A DNA stretch of 64,000 nt from Novipirellula aureliae. Its GTDB lineage: Bacteria; Planctomycetota; Planctomycetia; Pirellulales; Pirellulaceae. The notes below the pieces were generated by a model. The model was not told the origin of the DNA and made no database searches. It saw only the letters and a list, made by a program, of their open reading frames with translations. Positions within the stretch are counted from its first letter, which is position 1, and the number at the start of each line of letters is the position of its first letter. A program made the translations under genes and the position numbers. Below, piece by piece: positions 9,953 to 64,000 of the stretch. The stretch is from the NCBI RefSeq assembly GCF_007860185.1, contig NZ_SJPY01000010.1, positions 62,001-126,000 of the forward strand, given 5' to 3'.

Positions 9953-11566
9953 CTATTCGTTTTCTAGCTCATCGGCCCATTGCCCGTCCACCCACCGACT
10001 TCGTCCAGGCACTCTCCAGTTCGCCACGATCGCGGGAGTCAATCGACGGTCGACTTCCGCCATCGCCGCCGTTGCAGCGGCATGGGGGATTTGAGTGACG
10101 ATGATTTCACCGGTCGGACGTCGCGTCAAAAATCCGATCGTTTGCTTTCCGACGGGCCCGACTTCGGTACCCACCAATTCGTATCGCCAAACGGGCACGC
10201 CTCGAAAGAGGCTCAGTAGAACCCCACTCGACGACAAGACCAAATCGTTATCAATCCAAACCGGTTTAGATTTTCCCAAACTCCGCCGTGACGCCACCTC
10301 TCCGCGGATCGAGGCCGTCGACAATTCCCAAACGCGAAGTCGATTCGTTGTCGTAATCGCCAGCGAATCGCCATGCGGTGAAAAGGCAACTTGAGCGTAA
10401 CGATTCGATTCAATCGGCAGCCGACCCAAGAATTTTCCGTCTTGAGTTCGATACAAGCAAACGCCTCCGGCATCGGGGACGGCCACATAGTGGCGGCCAG
10501 CAGAGATCGCGGGTACCGACTGGGAATCGATCGAACAAATCAAGTGGCGTAGCTCACCTGAAACGATATTCCAAACCGCCAACTTTGAGTTGATTGCTGC
10601 GATAATATGTTCGTCATCAAGCCATTTAGCCCAGTACACCTGAGTGGGGCGAAACGAATTGCGAGCGTCATCATCGTCCTTTGGGGGAAGTGACCGCTGT
10701 AATTGAATGGAAATCGATTCCTCGTCCCAGCCGCGAACGACCGCCAATTGGCCACCCGATCCTCGGTTGCTATGGCCCGTGAGAACCAGCGTCTGTTTTG
10801 ACGGTCGATGGTGGTCCAACAACGTCAGGGTCCGTTTTGATTTCCAGACGATTCTCGATTCACCTGATTTGGGGTCAAAGCGAATGACGCGATTCGCCTC
10901 GTCGGGACTTACCGTCACACCCGTGCTAACCGAAACGGCAACAAAGGCGTTGGCGTCGGTGATGATCGGCATTGGTGGTGAACAATGATCATAAGCATGC
11001 AAGGGCCCGATCGTCACATTTCCGAATCCGACCGAGATCGGGTCTGCTTGGGGATCCGCTGGAATGGAGCCTGGAATTGCCCCCTGCCTCGATTGGTTGC
11101 CTGCTCTGTCAACATGGCTTGAGGCTTCCGCCTTTGCCGCAAGAGGTTGTCCGTCCTCAAGTTGAGTGGTGGCTTTTGGATAGGTCCATTTTGGAAGCAG
11201 CGGCATTTCCGGCAACTCGGGAGCCGCAAAACGAAGCGTATTTTCAGAAACCGGAGGACGACTTCGCCATTGCTCCAAATAATCGTGGTCGGAAAATCCA
11301 AGCTGATCTTCAGCAATCCGCACACGCGAACCATTGGGACGAACCAGGATGACCGTGCCATTTTCGATCGCTTCCAAACGGGCCTCAATCGTAAATTGGC
11401 CTGAGGCATCCACCCAAACGCGAACCGGTTCGCTAGCAATGCAAAGGTTTGAAATCAGCAAGCAACAAGCAAGGGTCGTCGCGCCAAAGCTCCGCTTGGG
11501 GATTGCTGAAGGAATTCCCAATCGGAGTGGTTTGGGCAATAGATTATCGGGTCGGTATTTGAACAT
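9953..11566 (-). CDS. Exported SHD1-domain and WD40-like propeller protein
   Basis: After a signal segment (ATTLACCLLISNLCIASEP) comes an SHD1 domain (VWVDASGQFTIEARLEAI and VRIAEDQLGFSDHDYLEQW), a module that planctomycetes often attach to exported proteins. The rest reads as a WD40-like beta-propeller, with blades such as VAFSPHGDSLAITTTNRLRV and LAVWNIVSGELRHLI. The start is set at ATG 11566 (MFKYRPDN), because a longer frame to 11629 adds residues before the signal peptide. SHD1 binds peptide motifs in eukaryotic Sla1; the bacterial ligand is unknown. The function is therefore unassigned, probably a periplasmic binding or scaffold protein. Confidence 0.82.
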   Translation of the reverse strand: MFKYRPDNLLPKPLRLGIPSAIPKRSFGATTLACCLLISNLCIASEPVRVWVDASGQFTIEARLEAIENGTVILVRPNGSRVRIAEDQLGFSDHDYLEQWRSRPPVSENTLRFAAPELPEMPLLPKWTYPKATTQLEDGQPLAAKAEASSHVDRAGNQSRQGAIPGSIPADPQADPISVGFGNVTIGPLHAYDHCSPPMPIITDANAFVAVSVSTGVTVSPDEANRVIRFDPKSGESRIVWKSKRTLTLLDHHRPSKQTLVLTGHSNRGSGGQLAVVRGWDEESISIQLQRSLPPKDDDDARNSFRPTQVYWAKWLDDEHIIAAINSKLAVWNIVSGELRHLICSIDSQSVPAISAGRHYVAVPDAGGVCLYRTQDGKFLGRLPIESNRYAQVAFSPHGDSLAITTTNRLRVWELSTASIRGEVASRRSLGKSKPVWIDNDLVLSSSGVLLSLFRGVPVWRYELVGTEVGPVGKQTIGFLTRRPTGEIIVTQIPHAAATAAMAEVDRRLTPAIVANWRVPGRSRWVDGQWADELENE

Positions 11567-15809: not shown

Positions 15810-16296
15810 TACGTAGCCCAGGCTTCTAGCCTGGGTTTTTGTTGTTGTGGCCCCAGGCTTCTAGCCTGGGTTTTGTTGTGCCCCCAGGCTTCCAGCCTAG
15901 GTTTTTTGTTGTGGCCCAGGCTTCTAGCCTGGGTTTTGTTGTGCCCCCAGGCTTCCAGCCTGGGTTTCTTGTTGTGGCCCAGGCTTCTAGCCTGGGTTTT
16001 GTTGTGCCCCCCAGGCTTCCAGTCCTAGGTTTTTTGTTGTGGCCCAGGCTTCTAGCCTGGGTTTTGTTGTGCCCTCAGGCTTCCAGCCTAGGTTTTCTGT
16101 TGTGCCCTCAGGCTTCCAGTCCTGGGTTTCTTGTTGTGGCCTCAGGCTTCCAGCCTAGGTTTTTTGTTGTGGCCCCAGGCTTCTAGCCTGGGTTTCTTGT
16201 TGTGGCCTCAGGCTTCCAGCCTAGGTTTTCTGTTGTGCCCTCAGGCTTCTAGCCTAGGTTTTGTTGTGGTCCCAGGCTGGAAGCCTGGGCTACGTA
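15810..16296. repeat. Tandem array of about 15 hairpin units (CCCAGGCT family), closed by inverted ends
   Basis: About 15 units of 31-33 bp each carry a hairpin CCCAGGCT-TCT-AGCCTGGG (8-bp stem, 3-nt loop) or close variants (TTCCAGCCTAGG), separated by a T-rich linker GTTTTGTTGTGGC. The left edge is TACGTAGCCCAGG (15810-15822) and the right edge is its exact reverse complement CCTGGGCTACGTA (16284-16296). The units alternate somewhat between TCT and TCC loops. Translations through the array (such as a 115-residue plus-strand frame) are repeat artefacts. A single hairpin of the same family is at 57025-57043. Confidence 0.92.
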
Positions 16297-18140: not shown

Positions 18141-18218
18141 TTCTGTTTTCGTGGCGATGCCACGGTAGGCTTTTCCCCCAGACGCAAGTCCGGGGTCGCG
18201 AAATCCGTTGCGATCGAA

Positions 18219-18382
18219 GTCCCGAAGGGACGGCAGGAGAATCGGTTTTGCTGGGTATTTTCGGGGGGCCTTGGGGATAGCGATGTTTTTCTGGCGTTGC
18301 TTCGTGACGTGTCGGACGCTCAGGGTGGCATGAACCCCGGACTCGCGTCCGGGGCGATCACAATGCGTCCCAATCGGGACGC
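18219..18382. repeat. Three unrelated intergenic hairpins downstream of the S1 gene
   Basis: GTCCC-GAA-GGGAC at 18219-18231, CCCCGGAC-TCGC-GTCCGGGG at 18335-18354, and GCGTCCC-AATC-GGGACGC at 18365-18382 are perfect palindromes in the 283-bp gap. A half-site of the second (GCAAGTCCGGGG) lies near 18184. One or more may act as a transcription terminator, but there is no T-run after any of them. Confidence 0.7.
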
Positions 18383-24971: not shown

Positions 24972-25515
24972 GGCTCGTGCTTAGGCACCGCTTGATACTC
25001 GGCTAGGCAAAAGAGTGGCTGGGGCATCTTGCCCCAGTAAGCTGCGGCTAGAAGCCGCAGTCACGAAAAATTCTAACCCTCACTCTTGTATCTTGCCCCA
25101 GTAAGCTGCGGCTAGAAGCCGCAGCCACGAAAAATTCTTATGCTCTCTCTTGCATCTTGCCGCAGTAAGCTGCGGCTAGAAGCCGCAGTCACGAAAAATT
25201 CTTATGCTCTCTCTTGCATCTTGCCCCAGTAAGCTGCGGCTAGAAGCCGCAGCCACGAAAAATTCTTATGCTCTCTCTTGCATCTTGCCCCAGTAAGCTG
25301 CGGCTAGAAGCCGCAGCCACGAAAAATTCTTATGCTCTCTCTTGCATCTTGCCCCAGTAAGCTGCGGCTAGAAGCCGCAGTCACGAAAAATTCTTATGCT
25401 CTCTCTTGCATCTTGCCCCAGTAAGCTGCGGCTAGAAGCCGCAGTCACGAAAAATTCTTATCCTCTCTCTTGTATCTTGCCCCAGTAAGCTGCGGCTAGA
25501 AGCCGCAGTCACTCC
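24972..25515. repeat. Tandem array of about 8 units of 65 bp (CTGCGGCT hairpin family)
   Basis: A left end like that of the CTAGTGCTTTGTC element (GTGCTTAGGCACCGCTTGAT, then GGCAAAAGAGTGGCTGGGGC) runs into about 8 repeats of roughly 65 bp. Each holds a hairpin CTGCGGCT-AGA-AGCCGCAG and the spacer CACGAAAAATTCTTATGCTC. The usual right end (GACAAAGCACT) is missing. Most units are nearly identical, indicating recent amplification. The array lies between a lipoprotein gene and the 3' end of the SulP gene and codes for nothing. Confidence 0.9.
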
Positions 25516-40711: not shown

Positions 40712-42082
40712 ATGAACGCTTCAAAGAAGGTCTTTCTCTCCGACGCTGAAATGCCCCGCCAATGGTACAACTTGGCCGCGGATGTTCCGATGCAGCCTCA
40801 TCTGGGGCCGGATTCTCAACCGATTACACCCGAGATGCTTGCTCCGGTCTTTCCGATGAATATCATCGACCAGGAAATGAGCACCGAACGCTGGATCGAT
40901 ATCCCTGACGAGATTATGGGAATGCTGGCCCGATGGCGGCCAACGCCGCTCGTCCGGGCAACGGCACTTGAAGCTGCAATCGATACACCAGCAAAGATCT
41001 ACTACAAGAACGAAAGTGTTTCGCCTGCCGGCAGTCATAAGCCGAATACCGCCGTCGCTCAAGCTTGGTACAACAAGCAATTCGGTATCAAGCGGATCAC
41101 CACGGAAACGGGAGCTGGGCAATGGGGGAGTGCTTTGTCGTTTGCCTGTTCCCTTTTGGGTTTGGAATGCAAAGTGTTCATGGTCCGAGTCAGTTTCGAC
41201 CAGAAACCATTTCGCAAGATGATGATGCAAACATGGGGAGGAACCTGTGTTCCAAGTCCGAGTCCCGAGACAAACGCGGGGCGTCAAATCTTACAAGAGT
41301 TCCCCGACACACCTGGATCTCTCGGCATCGCCATCTCCGAAGCGATCGAACAAGCGGTCACGGACCCGAAAGGCGAAACCCGATACGCTCTCGGCAGCGT
41401 GCTAAACCACGTCATGTTGCACCAATCCATAATCGGTTTGGAAACCAAGGAACAACTAAAGAAGTTTGGCGAGCGGCAACCGGATGTGGTTATCGGTTGT
41501 GCCGGCGGTGGCAGCAATTTTGCTGGGTTGGCTTTCCCTTTTATTCACGATGTCATCAACGGCGACAAAATCAAAGTCGTTGCGGCCGAGCCAACGTCAT
41601 GCCCGACCCTTACCAAAGCTCCGTTCACATACGATCATGGTGACGTGGCGAAAATGACACCGCTAATGCCGATGCACAGCCTCGGCCATACGTTCATTCC
41701 CGCGCCAATTCACTCGGGGGGTTTGCGTTATCACGGCATGGCGCCCCTTGTGAGTGCCGCCGTGCAGGCTGGTTTTATCGATGCGGTCGCTTTGCACCAA
41801 AAAGAATGCTTCGAATCAGGCATCTTGTTTGCTAGAACCGAAGGGATCATTCCAGCACCTGAAACCAACCATGCAATCGCTGCGACGATTCGCGAAGCAA
41901 AGCTGGCGAAGGAAGAGGGCAAAGAAAAGGTGATCGTCTTCAATTTAAGTGGGCACGGGATGATGGACCTACTCGGCTACGAAAAGTATCTCTCGGGAAA
42001 CCTAGAAGACTACGAACTACCCATGGAAGTGATCGAGCGATACCAAAACGTCATCAAAAATCATCCACAACCAACCCAGTAG
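40712..42082 (+). CDS. trpB: Tryptophan synthase beta chain, TrpB2 type
   Basis: The 456-residue protein belongs to the longer TrpB2 branch: it has the extended N-terminus ([20 protein letters not shown]), [12 protein letters not shown], the PLP lysine in [10 protein letters not shown] (Lys110), [13 protein letters not shown] and the phosphate-binding [11 protein letters not shown]. TrpB2 enzymes make tryptophan from indole and serine, or salvage indole, often without a TrpA partner; no trpA lies nearby. The stop codon TAG (42080-42082) is the TAG inside the first unit of a tandem repeat array, so the last codons may come from repeat sequence. Confidence 0.93.
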
Positions 42083-42256
42083 CAGCGTCTCTCCGAGACG
42101 CTAACCCCAGTAGCAGCGTCTCTCCGAGGCGCTAACCCAGTAGCAGCGTCTCTCCGAGACGCTAAACCCAGTAGCAGCGTCTCTCCGAGACGCTAACCCA
42201 GTAGCAGCGTCTCTCCGAGGCGCTGACCCTAGTAGCAGCGTCTCTCCGAGACGCTG
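42076..42256. repeat. Tandem array of 6 units of about 30 bp (AGCGTCTC hairpin family)
   Basis: Six units read CCAGTAGCAGCGTCTCTCC, then GAGACGCTAAC, each holding the hairpin AGCGTCTC-TCC-GAGACGCT (8-bp stem, 3-nt loop). The array begins flush with the trpB stop codon, and its unit contains that TAG. It may serve as a multiple terminator. A related palindrome (GAGTCTC-GGA-GAGACTC) is at 43160-43176. Minus-strand frames across it read as ERRCYW repeats and are not genes. Confidence 0.9.
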
Positions 42257-58390: not shown

Positions 58391-58586
58391 GTAGTGGATC
58401 TTGTCAAAGATCCCTGATGTAGTGGATCTTGTCAAAGATCCCTGATGTAGTGGATCTTGTCAAAGTTCCCTGACGTAGTGGATCTTGTCAAAGTTCCCTG
58501 ATGTAGTGGATCTTGTCAAAGTTCCCTGATGTAGTGGATCTTGTCAAAGATCCCTGACGTGATGGATCTTTAACAAGATCCACTAC
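58391..58586. repeat. Tandem array of about 7 units of 28 bp (GGATCTT family), closed by inverted ends
   Basis: Units read GTAGTGGATCTTGTC then AAAGATCCCTGAT, with a hairpin GGATCTT-GTCA-AAGATCC; three units have AAAGTTCC, which breaks one pair. The array starts GTAGTGGATCTTGT (58391-58404) and ends with its exact complement ACAAGATCCACTAC (58573-58586), because the last unit is inverted. A single related hairpin is at 36979-36996. Confidence 0.9.
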
Positions 58587-60040: not shown

Positions 60041-60165
60041 CAGGCCGGAGGCCGACATATCCTTGCCGGTGGCGTGAGCCACCGGATCAAAGGCGATTAA
60101 GCCGATTAAGCCGCCGCAGGCCGGAGGCCGACACTTGATCACAATGTGTCGCCCTCGGGGCTAGC
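60041..60165. repeat. Isolated REP-like units of the GGCCGGAGGCCGACA family
   Basis: Two units (CAGGCCGGAGGCCGACATAT at 60041 and CAGGCCGGAGGCCGACACTT at 60118) flank CCGGTGGCGTGAGCCACCGG. A reverse-oriented half-unit GTGTCGCCCTCGGGGCTAG lies at 60147-60165. They match the large array at 61905-63900. Confidence 0.8.
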
Positions 60166-60596: not shown

Positions 60597-61748
60597 ATGA
60601 AGCGTCAAAATATCGGTTTTACTCTCGTCGAGCTATTGGTGGTCATTACCATCATTGGCATCTTGATGGGGCTATTGCTGCCTGCGATTAATGCGGCGCG
60701 AGAAACCGCGCGTCGAAACCAATGCAATACCCAGCTAAAAAACTTGGCTGTGGCAGCCATCCAGTACGAAAACACGAAAAAGGAATTGCCTGGGTACATC
60801 CAAAGTTTTGGGAACTACGCAGGCGGAACTGGGGCGTTGGACCCTGCGGATCCAGACAATTCGCTCGTGCCAGCTCACACAAAGCTAGGCACTTGGGTCG
60901 TTGCACTGTTGCCATGGCTTGATGCCCAGCCGACCTACGAACGCTGGACCGAAGATCGGTATCCACTCCTTGAAAACGGCACAACCCCAAATGGCGGAGA
61001 CAATGGATATCATCAACTGTCCACGCCGAACTTGGCAATTATGCAATGTGGTAGTAACCCCGTTTCGGTAGGTGCGTTCGCTAAGAACAGCTATATCGCA
61101 AACAATGGTATGGTCGGTGCGTTGGCCGCCCCGGTTTCCGGTCCCGGTACCGGCGTTTCGTTTTTGGATTCTCAAAAACGGGCGAATGGAGCTTTCAATA
61201 ATAAGTTCCCCCGGACCGATCGTCCGGCGGGACCTGCGGTTCGTCTTGACGACTTCAAGGATGGATTTGGCAATACCTTGTTGTTCTCAGAAAACGTTCA
61301 AGCGCTTCCCTGGAATCGCGTCGGATTCAGTGAGTCGGCAACGCTTCAAGATCCGACTGCAACAGCTGCCTTGAACACCCTTGCTAATGCTCCATACGGT
61401 CAAGGTATGGTTTGGCACTACGAAGACATTGACCCTGCCGCCAGTATCTCCTGGAATCACGAGGGCTATGTGCCAGGCGATATCAATGATTTTCCCCTGC
61501 ACCGGATCAATGGTGGAGACGGCACGAATGATCGGTTCACTCTTACGATGAGTGCAGCAAACGCTGCCGACTTGGCTCGTCCGTCCTCGGCACACGTTGA
61601 TGGCGTGAACGTTTCGATGGCGGATGGAGGATCGCGGTTTATCGCGGATTCGATCGATTACCGAGTTTACCAAGCGCTTTTGACACCTCGCGGTAAGAGC
61701 AGCGATGTGCCTTGGCCAGAGTATGTTTTGCAAGGCGAAGAGCTCTAA
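60597..61748 (+). CDS. DUF1559 protein with prepilin-type leader, copy 2
   Basis: The 383-residue protein opens MKRQNIGFTLVELLVVITII, a prepilin leader with cleavage expected before Phe, followed by LLLPAINAARETARRNQCN and the DUF1559 body. The C-terminal AHVDGVNVSMADGGSRFIAD is the family's conserved end. It is shorter than copy 1 and clearly diverged from it. GGAG lies before the ATG at suitable spacing. A strong terminator follows 51 bp after the stop, so it is probably transcribed alone. Confidence 0.95.
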   Translation: MKRQNIGFTLVELLVVITIIGILMGLLLPAINAARETARRNQCNTQLKNLAVAAIQYENTKKELPGYIQSFGNYAGGTGALDPADPDNSLVPAHTKLGTWVVALLPWLDAQPTYERWTEDRYPLLENGTTPNGGDNGYHQLSTPNLAIMQCGSNPVSVGAFAKNSYIANNGMVGALAAPVSGPGTGVSFLDSQKRANGAFNNKFPRTDRPAGPAVRLDDFKDGFGNTLLFSENVQALPWNRVGFSESATLQDPTATAALNTLANAPYGQGMVWHYEDIDPAASISWNHEGYVPGDINDFPLHRINGGDGTNDRFTLTMSAANAADLARPSSAHVDGVNVSMADGGSRFIADSIDYRVYQALLTPRGKSSDVPWPEYVLQGEEL

Positions 61749-61799
61749 GCGATTCAAACCTGCAAACAAGTTTGCTTGACAATGCTTCATGACCCAGAG

Positions 61800-61833
61800 G
61801 GCGTTCTTCGATTTCGGAGAACGCCTTTTTTTT
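61800..61833 (+). terminator. Rho-independent terminator after DUF1559 copy 2
   Basis: GGCGTTCT (61800-61807) pairs with AGAACGCC (61818-61825) around a 10-nt loop, followed directly by eight T. This is the clearest intrinsic terminator in the window. Confidence 0.92.
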
Positions 61834-62360
61834 GTTGGCTGGGTCTCGGGATCTGCAAATTCTAAAGCAGGATTATGTTTTCCGACGCATTTCTCCCAAT
61901 CGCATGAGCCACCGGACTCAAGCCCCCAATACCCCCCCCAAGGCCAGAGGCCGACACATCCTTGCCGGTGGTGTAAACCACCGGACTCAAGCTCCCATAC
62001 CCCCAAGGCCAGAGGCCGACACATCGTTGCCGGTGGTGTAAACCACCGGACTCAAACTCCCGTACCCCCAAGGCCGGAGGCCGACACATCCTTGCCGGTG
62101 GTGTAAACCACCGGACTCAAGCTCCCATACCCCCCAAGGCCAGAGGCCGACACATCCTTGCCGGTGGTGTAAACCACCGGACTCAAGCTCCCATACCCCC
62201 AAGGCCGGAGGCCGACACATCCTTGCCGGTGGTGTAAACCACCGGACTCAAGCTCCCATACCCCCAAGGCCAGAGGCCGACACATCCTTGCCGGTGGTGT
62301 AAACCACCGGACTCAAGGTCCCAATACCCCCCAAGGCCGGAGGCCGACACATATTTCCCA

Positions 62361-62640
62361 ATGAACTCCGTTATGGCTTCGCATCAACAGCTTCGTCGCG
62401 ATCAAGATGTCAGTGGGTTCCGCACGATCTCTTGTAGAATTGAAGATGGAAATGTGTCGCCCTCTGGGCTAGGGAAAAAAACTAGCAAGTTTCCGGGGCC
62501 TGACGACCCCGGCAGTTTATGTGTCGCCCTCTGGGCTGAAACAACAACGACTCTCGAACAAATCGATAAGAACTTGGCCATGGAGCTGACATATCGCTTC
62601 CGCCCGCATAGAGGGCAGGCCACCAAGTAGAACACCCAGG
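62361..62640 (+). pseudogene. Truncated derivative of the transposase start, copy 1
   Basis: ACTCCGTT then ATG (62373) and the codons for MASHQQL match the start of the gene at 63920. After that the sequence departs (RRDQDVSGFRTIS) and includes two reverse-oriented REP half-units (GTGTCGCCCTCTGGGCT). It ends in an in-frame TAG at 62628-62630. The likely explanation is an internal deletion and rearrangement; a functional small protein is not supported. Confidence 0.7.
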
Positions 62641-63261
62641 TCACCAAGGCCAGAGGCCGACACATCCTTGCCGGTGGTGTAAACCACCGGACTCAAACTC
62701 CCGTACCCCCAAGGCCGGAGGCCGACACATCGTTGCCGGTGGTGTAAACCACCGACTCAAACTCCCATGCCCTAAGGCCGGAGGCCGACACATCCTTGCC
62801 GGTGGTGTAAACCACCGGACTCAAGCTCCCAATACCCCCCAAGGCCGGAGGCCGACACATCCTTGTCGGTGGTGTAAACCACCGGACTCAAACTCCCGTA
62901 CCCCCAAGGCCAGAGGCCGACACATCCTTGCCGGTGGTGTAAACCACCGGACTCAAGCTCCCATACCCCCAAGGCCGGAGGCCGACACATCCTTGCCGGT
63001 GGTGTAAACCACCGGACTCAAGCTCCCAATACCCCCTAAGGCCAGAGGCCGACACATTTTTGCCGGTGGTGTAAACCACCGGACTCAAGCTCCCATACCC
63101 CTAAGGCCAGAGGCCGACACATCCTTGCCGGTGGTGTAAACCACCGGACTCAAGGTCCCAATACCCCTAAGGCCAGAGGCCGACACATTTTTGCCGGTGG
63201 TGTAAACCACCGGACTCAAGCTCCCATACCTCCAAGGCCAGAGGCCGACACATATTACCCA

Positions 63262-63541
63262 ATGAACTCCGTTATGGCTTCGCCTCAACAGCTTCTCCGC
63301 GATCAAGATGTCAGTGGGTTCCGCACGATCTCTGGTAGAATTGAAGATGGAAATGTGTCGCCCTCTGGGCTAGGGAAAAAAACTAGCAAGTTTCCGGGGC
63401 CTGACGACCCCGGCAGTTTATGTGTCGCCCTCTGGGCTGAAACAACAACGACTCTCGAACAAATCGATAAGAACTTGGCCATGGAGCTGACATATCGCTT
63501 CCGCCCGCATAGAGGGCAGGCCACCAAGTAGAACACCCAGG
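63262..63541 (+). pseudogene. Truncated derivative of the transposase start, copy 2
   Basis: This is a near-identical copy of 62361-62640, offset by exactly 901 bp, differing at only a few bases near the start (CCTCAACAGCTTCTCC versus GCATCAACAGCTTCGTC) and one or two later. The identity suggests duplication of a unit of about 0.9 kb that included REP repeats. Confidence 0.7.
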
Positions 63542-63919
63542 TCACCAAGGCCAGAGGCCGACACATCGTTGCCGGTGGTGTAAACCACCGGACTCAAACT
63601 CCCGTATCCCCAAGGCCGGAGGCCGACACATCCTTGCCGGTGGTGTAAACCACCGGACTCAAGCTCCCATACCCCCAAGGCCGGAGGCCGACACATCGTT
63701 GCCAGTGGTGTAAACCACCGACTCAAACTCCCATACCCCCCCAAGGCCGGAGGCCGACACATCCTTGCCGGTGGTGTAAACCACCGGACTCAAGCTCCCA
63801 TACCCCTAAGGCCAGAGGCCGACACATCCTTGCCGGTGGTGTAAACCACCGGACTCAAGCTCGCGTACGCGTACCCCCAAGGCCGGAGGCCGACACATCA
63901 TTCCCCAAGGGACTCCGTT

Positions 63920-64000
63920 ATGGCTTCACATCAACAGCTTCTCTATCACATCGTCTTCAGCACGAAAGAACGCCGGCTGCTGTTGCAAGACAATCTTTTT
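63920..64000 (+). CDS. IS200-like / REP-associated tyrosine transposase, 5' end only
   Basis: The 27 codons in the window read MASHQQLLYHIVFSTKERR and eight more residues, which is the typical first strand of IS200/IS605-type Y1 transposases and their REP-associated relatives (RAYTs). The HxH metal-binding pair and the catalytic Tyr would lie beyond the window edge, so activity cannot be judged. The gene starts directly after a 23-unit REP-like array, the arrangement expected of a RAYT and the repeats it processes. Confidence 0.78.
   Translation, partial: MASHQQLLYHIVFSTKERRLLLQDNLF

Follow-up and report, generated by a model that had tools for sequence, protein, structure and literature searches.

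RAYT proteins (class 2 TnpA_REP) share with the locus described here an HUH/Tyr enzyme whose gene is flanked by inverted hairpin repeats, and RAYT/REPIN systems further share with it dispersed gene-less inverted pairs, gene-specific repeat families and tandem clusters, as described in the portions of PMC3733652, PMC3116915 and PMC8266576 used here. However, compared with the RAYT/GTAG-REP systems in those portions, our transposase belongs to another class, the repeats here consist of two hairpins at a fixed spacing of 12 nt, and the hairpin foot is often NTAG, or TTG in the array itself. Fold and profile place IS608 and ISDra2 (IS200/IS605) nearest to our transposase, and these elements likewise have palindromic ends with a 5' guide (PMC8266576, same portion). 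Unlike them, several hairpins are present per arm here, and gene-less copies outnumber genes. The CGTC-tagged REPs, for which the excerpted text of PMC3733652 reports no dedicated transposase and a tag that may read TGTC, resemble the present family in that our hairpin A bears a TGTC tag. Their stems, according to the same text, are of 8-9 bp starting with A-T pairs, whereas ours are of 4-5 bp and G+C-rich; membership in this group was rejected on stem length and base composition.

A further relative is subclass 1.2 of TnpA_Y1 (Quentin et al. 2018, PMC6006769). In the parts of that paper used here, Table 1 gives "no" for REPs in subclass 1.2, the subclass is placed mainly in Cyanobacteria and Bacteroidetes, and the automatic REP search covered genomes encoding TnpA_REP. 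Our transposase is like this subclass in its size (about 150 aa), its DHxH, WQ and Y...Q..HH motifs and its few gene copies per genome. Unlike in those parts of the published account, two-hairpin inverted repeats flank most of the homologues sampled here, and many homologues belong to Planctomycetota, Verrucomicrobiota and Acidobacteriota. We consider it probable, at roughly 0.8, that the locus is a REPtron-like element, in which an HUH/Tyr enzyme of 150 aa, bearing subclass 1.2 motifs, is paired with a two-hairpin REP whose gene-less copies would be moved in trans.

The array and its transposase gene

The window, that is, the whole 64,000-nt stretch analysed, corresponds to C10:62001-126000 in a genome of 7.27 Mb and 40 contigs. 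Its features are as follows, in window positions unless a contig is given.

61905..62352, + strand: block 1, a partial hairpin, then six full A'-12-B modules and a terminal A' palindrome
62353..62640, + strand: remnant 1, comprising 42 nt around the gene start, the gene 3' end, an A-B-A right arm and about 103 nt of other sequence
62493-62536, - strand: match of model R1 in remnant 1
62644..63253, + strand: block 2, nine full A'-12-B modules and a terminal A' palindrome
63254..63541, + strand: remnant 2, 98% identical to remnant 1, with an R1 match at 63394-63437 (- strand)
63545..63899, + strand: block 3, five full modules and a terminal A' palindrome; left arm adjoining the gene
63920..64000, + strand: start of the transposase gene (150 aa), which runs on beyond the window to C10:126372
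about C10:126384-126474, beyond the window: right arm A-B-A, behind the transposase gene
60043..60085, + strand: dispersed module of the array type, with a second A core at 60119
18151..18195, + strand: separate two-hairpin module (model R1)
18335..18380, - strand: separate two-hairpin module (model R1), convergent with 18151..18195

A preliminary description of this DNA had reported about 23 units leading into the gene, each with a perfect 8-bp hairpin, a 4-nt loop and a second short palindrome. The number applies to the small palindrome, GGCC[AG]GAGGCCGACACAT, which is present in 23 copies at a period of 65; the array itself is split by two remnants into three blocks (7, 10 and 6 palindromes) and holds 20 full units, each 63-71 bp long. 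The hairpin, B, has the 8-bp stem and 4-nt loop described; it reads CCGGTGGT-GTAA-ACCACCGG, with exact copies in 17 of the 20 full units, and the gap between palindrome and hairpin is exactly 12 nt in every one of the 20. No hairpin accompanies the final palindrome of any block, and that of block 3 stops about 20 nt upstream of ATG 63920, the distance originally given. Some of the 20 units are identical between different blocks. As Tandem Repeats Finder returned three period-65 arrays (61909-62352, 62644-63253 and 63545-63899) with scores of 554-1053, the array is beyond chance. An Rfam search of 61000-64000 at E <= 1 gave two weak, chance-like matches and nothing else, both to a human lncRNA family. 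Four more tandem arrays lie in the window (15817-16278, 25024-25512, 42073-42255 and 58391-58570), their units carrying hairpins of other sequence.

With 11 perfect 8-bp hairpins in the 1.5 kb ahead of the gene, the array ranks highest among 125 upstream flanks. Tandem REP arrays as such are known in Pseudomonas SBW25 (PMC3116915, in the portion used), and Planctomycetes bacterium Pan216 has five tandem modules with a spacing of 95 bp upstream of a homologous gene. The array is the extreme of a known habit, and its length alone is unusual.

The two 288-bp spacers between the blocks each consist of 42 nt around the gene start fused to the 3' end of the transposase gene and its 3' flank, with remnant positions 48-185 aligning to the latter two at 76%. 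Both are decayed internal deletions of the transposase element. A third copy of the remnant lies in a second array at C4:568.4-569.4 kb, and no Y1_Tnp match was found on contig C4. Tandem repeats with GGGACGGCATTAGGGACAGAGCATCAT follow behind that array, with the inverse of this sequence farther along (L030:9432-9602 and 10878-11565).

The transposase gene is intact (L029:3921-4373). The N-terminus of its product reads MASHQQLLYHIVFSTKERR, as predicted from the window, and the HxH and Tyr motifs expected to the right are present there as DHAH (HAH) and YIDRQLEHH, together with WQ. The protein scores 84.4 bits with Pfam PF01797 Y1_Tnp (cut-off 23) and 65.7 bits with NCBIfam NF033573 (transpos_IS200, IS200/IS605; cut-off 55), and H55, H57 and Y115 are invariant in the 33 rows of alignment A1. 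By profile, HUH motif and catalytic Tyr, it is an IS200/IS605-type HUH transposase (Y1_Tnp). An AlphaFold2 model (mean pLDDT 93.6) gave ISDra2 and IS608 TnpA as the top PDB matches. The motifs described for TnpA_Y1 subclass 1.2 (about 148 aa, DHxH, WQ, Y...Q..HH) are also present, here and in nearly all homologues, and would place the protein in that subclass, an assignment made by motifs rather than by the profile of PMC6006769; its own DHAH compares with DH[IV]H in the subclass 1.2 table of that paper, as far as the parts used go.

Because two small palindromes in reversed orientation and a hairpin of different sequence (CCGGGGCC...GGCCCCGG) sit behind the stop codon, the gene has inverted hairpin arms. 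The B hairpin of the right arm has another sequence, a 5-nt loop and a CGA foot, which counts against the REPtron-like reading.

Two-hairpin flanks of homologous genes

A homologue of the transposase is encoded in 37 of 60 genomes, the present one included. Many of these genes share one design with differing sequences: A' - 12 nt - B - about 20-30 nt - A' ahead of the gene, with its mirror image behind. An inverted repeat across the gene stood above all 40 shuffles in 45 of 55 flank pairs, or in 43 of 53 without repeated loci (L103 = L050 and L092 = L054 are counted twice in the 55, and L101 is omitted for its short flank); the ten remaining pairs count against the REPtron-like reading. Perfect hairpins (stem >=8, loop 3-5) numbered 97 in 53 loci, the stem being exactly 8 bp in 96. 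Between the end of a 5-bp A' hairpin and B we counted 12 nt in 29 of these 97 (L029, L092 and L103 omitted), 13 nt in 10 and 14 nt in 2; gaps of 3-11 nt did not occur, and a second, lower peak lay at 24-25 nt (6 each).

Stem pairing in alignment A2 was rejected as evidence of covariation, its rows having been selected for paired stems, and therefore this gap test and control stretches were used instead. In 124 distinct loci, counted with duplicates removed (L080 and L114 being one locus) and the own loci L029 and L032 left out, an inverted repeat was found in 99 as against 5 of 143 control stretches from the same loci, an 8-bp hairpin in 81 flanks as against 16 of 143, and the A-12/13-B design in 54 as against 2 of 143.

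The named homologues are the 80 best-ranking among at least 584 candidates; phyla are unevenly sampled among them, with no cyanobacterial locus. They are headed by one from an uncultured Pirellula (75%), a kinship that points to a planctomycete host. An inverted repeat was present in 60 of the 76 with usable flanks and the A-12/13-B design in 35 of the 80, distributed as follows by phylum (taken from record titles, many records being metagenome bins).

Planctomycetota: inverted repeat 23/26; A-12/13-B 13/27
Verrucomicrobiota: inverted repeat 8/8; A-12/13-B 5/9
Acidobacteriota: inverted repeat 4/6; A-12/13-B 4/7
Bacteroidota: inverted repeat 20/29; A-12/13-B 6/29 (weaker; counts against the REPtron-like reading)
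Desulfobacterota: inverted repeat 2/3; A-12/13-B 4/4
Ignavibacteriota, Calditrichota and Zixibacteria: one locus each, both features
Sumerlaeota: one locus, neither feature

On the transposase tree, the Ignavibacteria locus and the Acidobacteriota locus L119 fall among Bacteroidota.

Although TAG was no selection criterion, it stands unpaired ahead of B in 56 of 80 units. Among units of other homologues, 23 of 80 have the class 2 foot, GT[AG]G, whereas the modules of our array have TTG; in the clade of our transposase, [TC]TG replaces TAG as the foot of the A'-B module in six of the seven loci examined. The array repeat is a hairpin family of its own, as first proposed, but with two hairpins and without the GTAG foot of an ordinary REP. 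The length of the B loop follows the transposase tree: on a quick tree of 129 homologues, loops of 3 versus 4 nt (83 labelled rows) require 8 changes as against 23 in shuffles, and none of 500 shuffles came as low. Starred branches force four of these changes, and the number becomes 12 once four rows with 5-nt loops are included.

With repeats in the flanks of homologues and a common ruler, the published absence of REPs from subclass 1.2 does not hold here, and we read it as a gap in the published description. In the literature searched, we recognised no report on REPs of subclass 1.2 or on these repeats, nor did we find a description of the two-hairpin design within this branch.

Model R1, co-occurrence and gene-less copies

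Covariance model R1 was built from 54 units, none from the present genome. It matched 19 of the 20 full array units, 17 at E <= 3.5e-6 and two at E <= 0.03, and, in the rest of the window, the right arms of both remnants (E 0.0011), the module at 60043-60085 and the two convergent modules at 18151-18380, along with some weak hits. Elsewhere in the genome, R1 matches 52 nt long at C10:53.7-55.9 kb represent another hairpin family than that of the array. They lie in a tandem array of units of about 220-300 bp (L206, C10:53500-56000); this family, the third of two-hairpin type, has its hairpins 12 nt apart and GTAG as the foot; similar 52-nt matches occur at C2:798 kb and C1:603 kb, and the two own subclass-1.2 genes carry repeats other than this family.

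Across the 60 genomes (58 genera), gene and R1 matches occurred together in 31, the gene alone in 6, R1 alone in 5 and neither in 18 (Fisher p 2.4e-6); once the 14 genomes contributing sequences to R1 are left out, the numbers become 17, 6, 5 and 18 (p 9.4e-4), both p values ignoring kinship. Together with the flank counts, this ties the repeats to the transposase gene across genomes, as the earlier proposal of a transposase with its own repeat family would have it. The six genomes with the gene and no R1 match, and the five with the reverse, count against the REPtron-like reading, although 104 candidates were scored per genome and an absent match may be false. Some genomes have at least 100 R1 matches. 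Two plasmid homologues had no R1 match, a further point against the REPtron-like reading, and one of them is without the Y motif.

Among the 13 Y1_Tnp loci of the genome, R1 matched at E <= 1 only at L016 and L017, the two subclass-1.2 genes, and not at the other 11; in L017 it did not find the locus's own right arm. This 13-locus search replaced an R1 listing of the own genome (150 of 1476 candidates scored, array absent), which was rejected as a specificity control. Four of the other Y1 genes (C2:601502, C9:14644, C1:1237215 and C1:1255173), at which R1 had no match, are flanked by different hairpin repeats of their own, some in tandem. At C8:45000-75000 (L031/L046), repeated TGAGTCCTGACACCTTTATCTTC and GATGGAAAGGTGTCAGGACTCTTT flank several nearly identical Y1 genes (about 260-290 aa), which resemble the TIR-flanked type of the literature.

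The genome-wide search for the unit that had been proposed yielded 58 matches to the own core pattern, both arrays included, and a reversed control gave 0 throughout the 60 genomes. Elsewhere the core was matched 56 times in G008, which has a 63% homologue, 28 times in G015 and once each in G001 and G022, in the latter 7 bp behind a fragment of the gene (58%); there was none in 55 genomes. G015, in which no homologue exceeds 48%, counts against the REPtron-like reading.

Gene-less copies are found at six sites of the own genome as two arms back to back with a gap of 10-12 bp. In G030, about 14 of 20 fetched copies are, by eye, complete A'BA'-ABA elements of about 200 bp, carrying right-arm sequences of the homologue L079; this 1.2-like gene is without a complete left arm, which counts against the REPtron-like reading. 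A second repeat family of G030, adjoining its 60% homologue, is also widely dispersed. Neighbouring pairs less than 700 bp apart are convergent in 18 of 20 cases (hits entered from G000, G018, G030 and G050, not all listed), with spacings of 106-168 bp in 16, 237 bp in one and 612 bp in one, the last enclosing the second own subclass-1.2 gene. Tandem copies are seen instead in G010, among the matches listed, which speaks against a REPIN organisation there. Overall, the inverted pair is a dispersed unit, as in REPINs, and the gene is flanked by inverted repeats that are also found dispersed, which is the organisation of a REPtron.

Interpretation of the locus

The REPtron-like reading is preferred because of: the gene motifs, family scores and AlphaFold2 matches; the flank enrichment, the 12-nt ruler and the TAG foot; the R1 matches, their co-occurrence with the gene and their specificity among the 13 loci; and the fit of B loop to tree, the gene-less pairs and the identical units in different blocks. 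Its repeat unit is a two-hairpin REP, with a small hairpin A (4-5 bp, 3-nt loop), a 12-nt spacer and a hairpin B (8 bp, 3-4-nt loop) that has a short conserved foot; a left arm A'-B-A' lies upstream of the gene and an inverted A-B-A downstream. The anatomy, the association with the gene, the ruler and the dispersal of gene-less copies are observed here. By analogy with the IS608/ISDra2 structures and TnpA_REP biochemistry (PMC8266576), the enzyme may bind the hairpins on single-stranded (lagging-strand) DNA, and Tyr115 may cut and rejoin the DNA beside them with the foot as a guide. In line with the proposals for TnpA_REP and REPINs, we infer that the transposase also mobilises, in trans, those A'BA'-ABA copies that lack a gene. 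The long 5' array is the 65-bp A'-B module expanded in tandem. Unequal exchange or slippage probably produced it, and in doing so also duplicated a decayed internal-deletion derivative.

Alternatively, the locus might be an insertion sequence of ordinary IS200 type that jumps autonomously and whose ends were multiplied by chance. The nearest profile and fold are indeed those of IS200/IS605, and the arms adjoin the gene as IS ends do. However, homologues diverge within a genome (those of G008 are 63, 43, 42, 41 and 39% identical to our protein), the numerous gene-less repeats contrast with these divergent gene copies, and two paralogues in G030 have different repeat families, all of which makes this explanation unlikely.

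Were the enzyme a genuine RAYT of class 2 (TnpA_REP) and its repeats an ordinary REP family, close to what the preliminary description had supposed, this would account for the inverted hairpin repeats on both sides of the gene, for their dispersal, and for the GT[AG]G feet among other homologues. We regard this as quite improbable: the NCBIfam profile for REP-associated transposases (REP_Tyr_transpos) gives 23.3 bits where 80 are needed, in contrast to the transpos_IS200 score; the protein has Y...Q..HH and not Y...NP; and the E. coli TnpA_REP structure 4ER8 is a weaker match to the model than ISDra2 and IS608. What stands of that proposal is an HUH/Tyr transposase with its own hairpin family.

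That gene and repeats are functionally unlinked neighbours, the hairpins being terminators or RNA-stability elements and the array a recombination by-product, would suit the tandem arrays of other hairpins in this genome and the five genomes with repeats and no gene, but is very improbable in view of the flank enrichment, the 12-nt ruler, the correlation of loop and tree, and the co-occurrence.

Beyond this locus, we lean, with less assurance than for the REPtron-like reading itself, towards the view that subclass 1.2 as a whole has a superfamily of bipartite REPs of its own to work on, built on a 12-nt ruler and seen here in eight phyla, and that the origin or retention of REP systems has not been confined to the RAYT class. 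If true, this would be a second, structurally distinct pairing of transposase and REP beside RAYT and GTAG REPs. A-12-B is a plain design rule, and recognition can be tested by changes of spacer, loop or foot, for which a loop length that tracks the transposase tree provides a natural series. The array and its deletion derivatives capture a possible route from a gene-bearing element to gene-less repeats.
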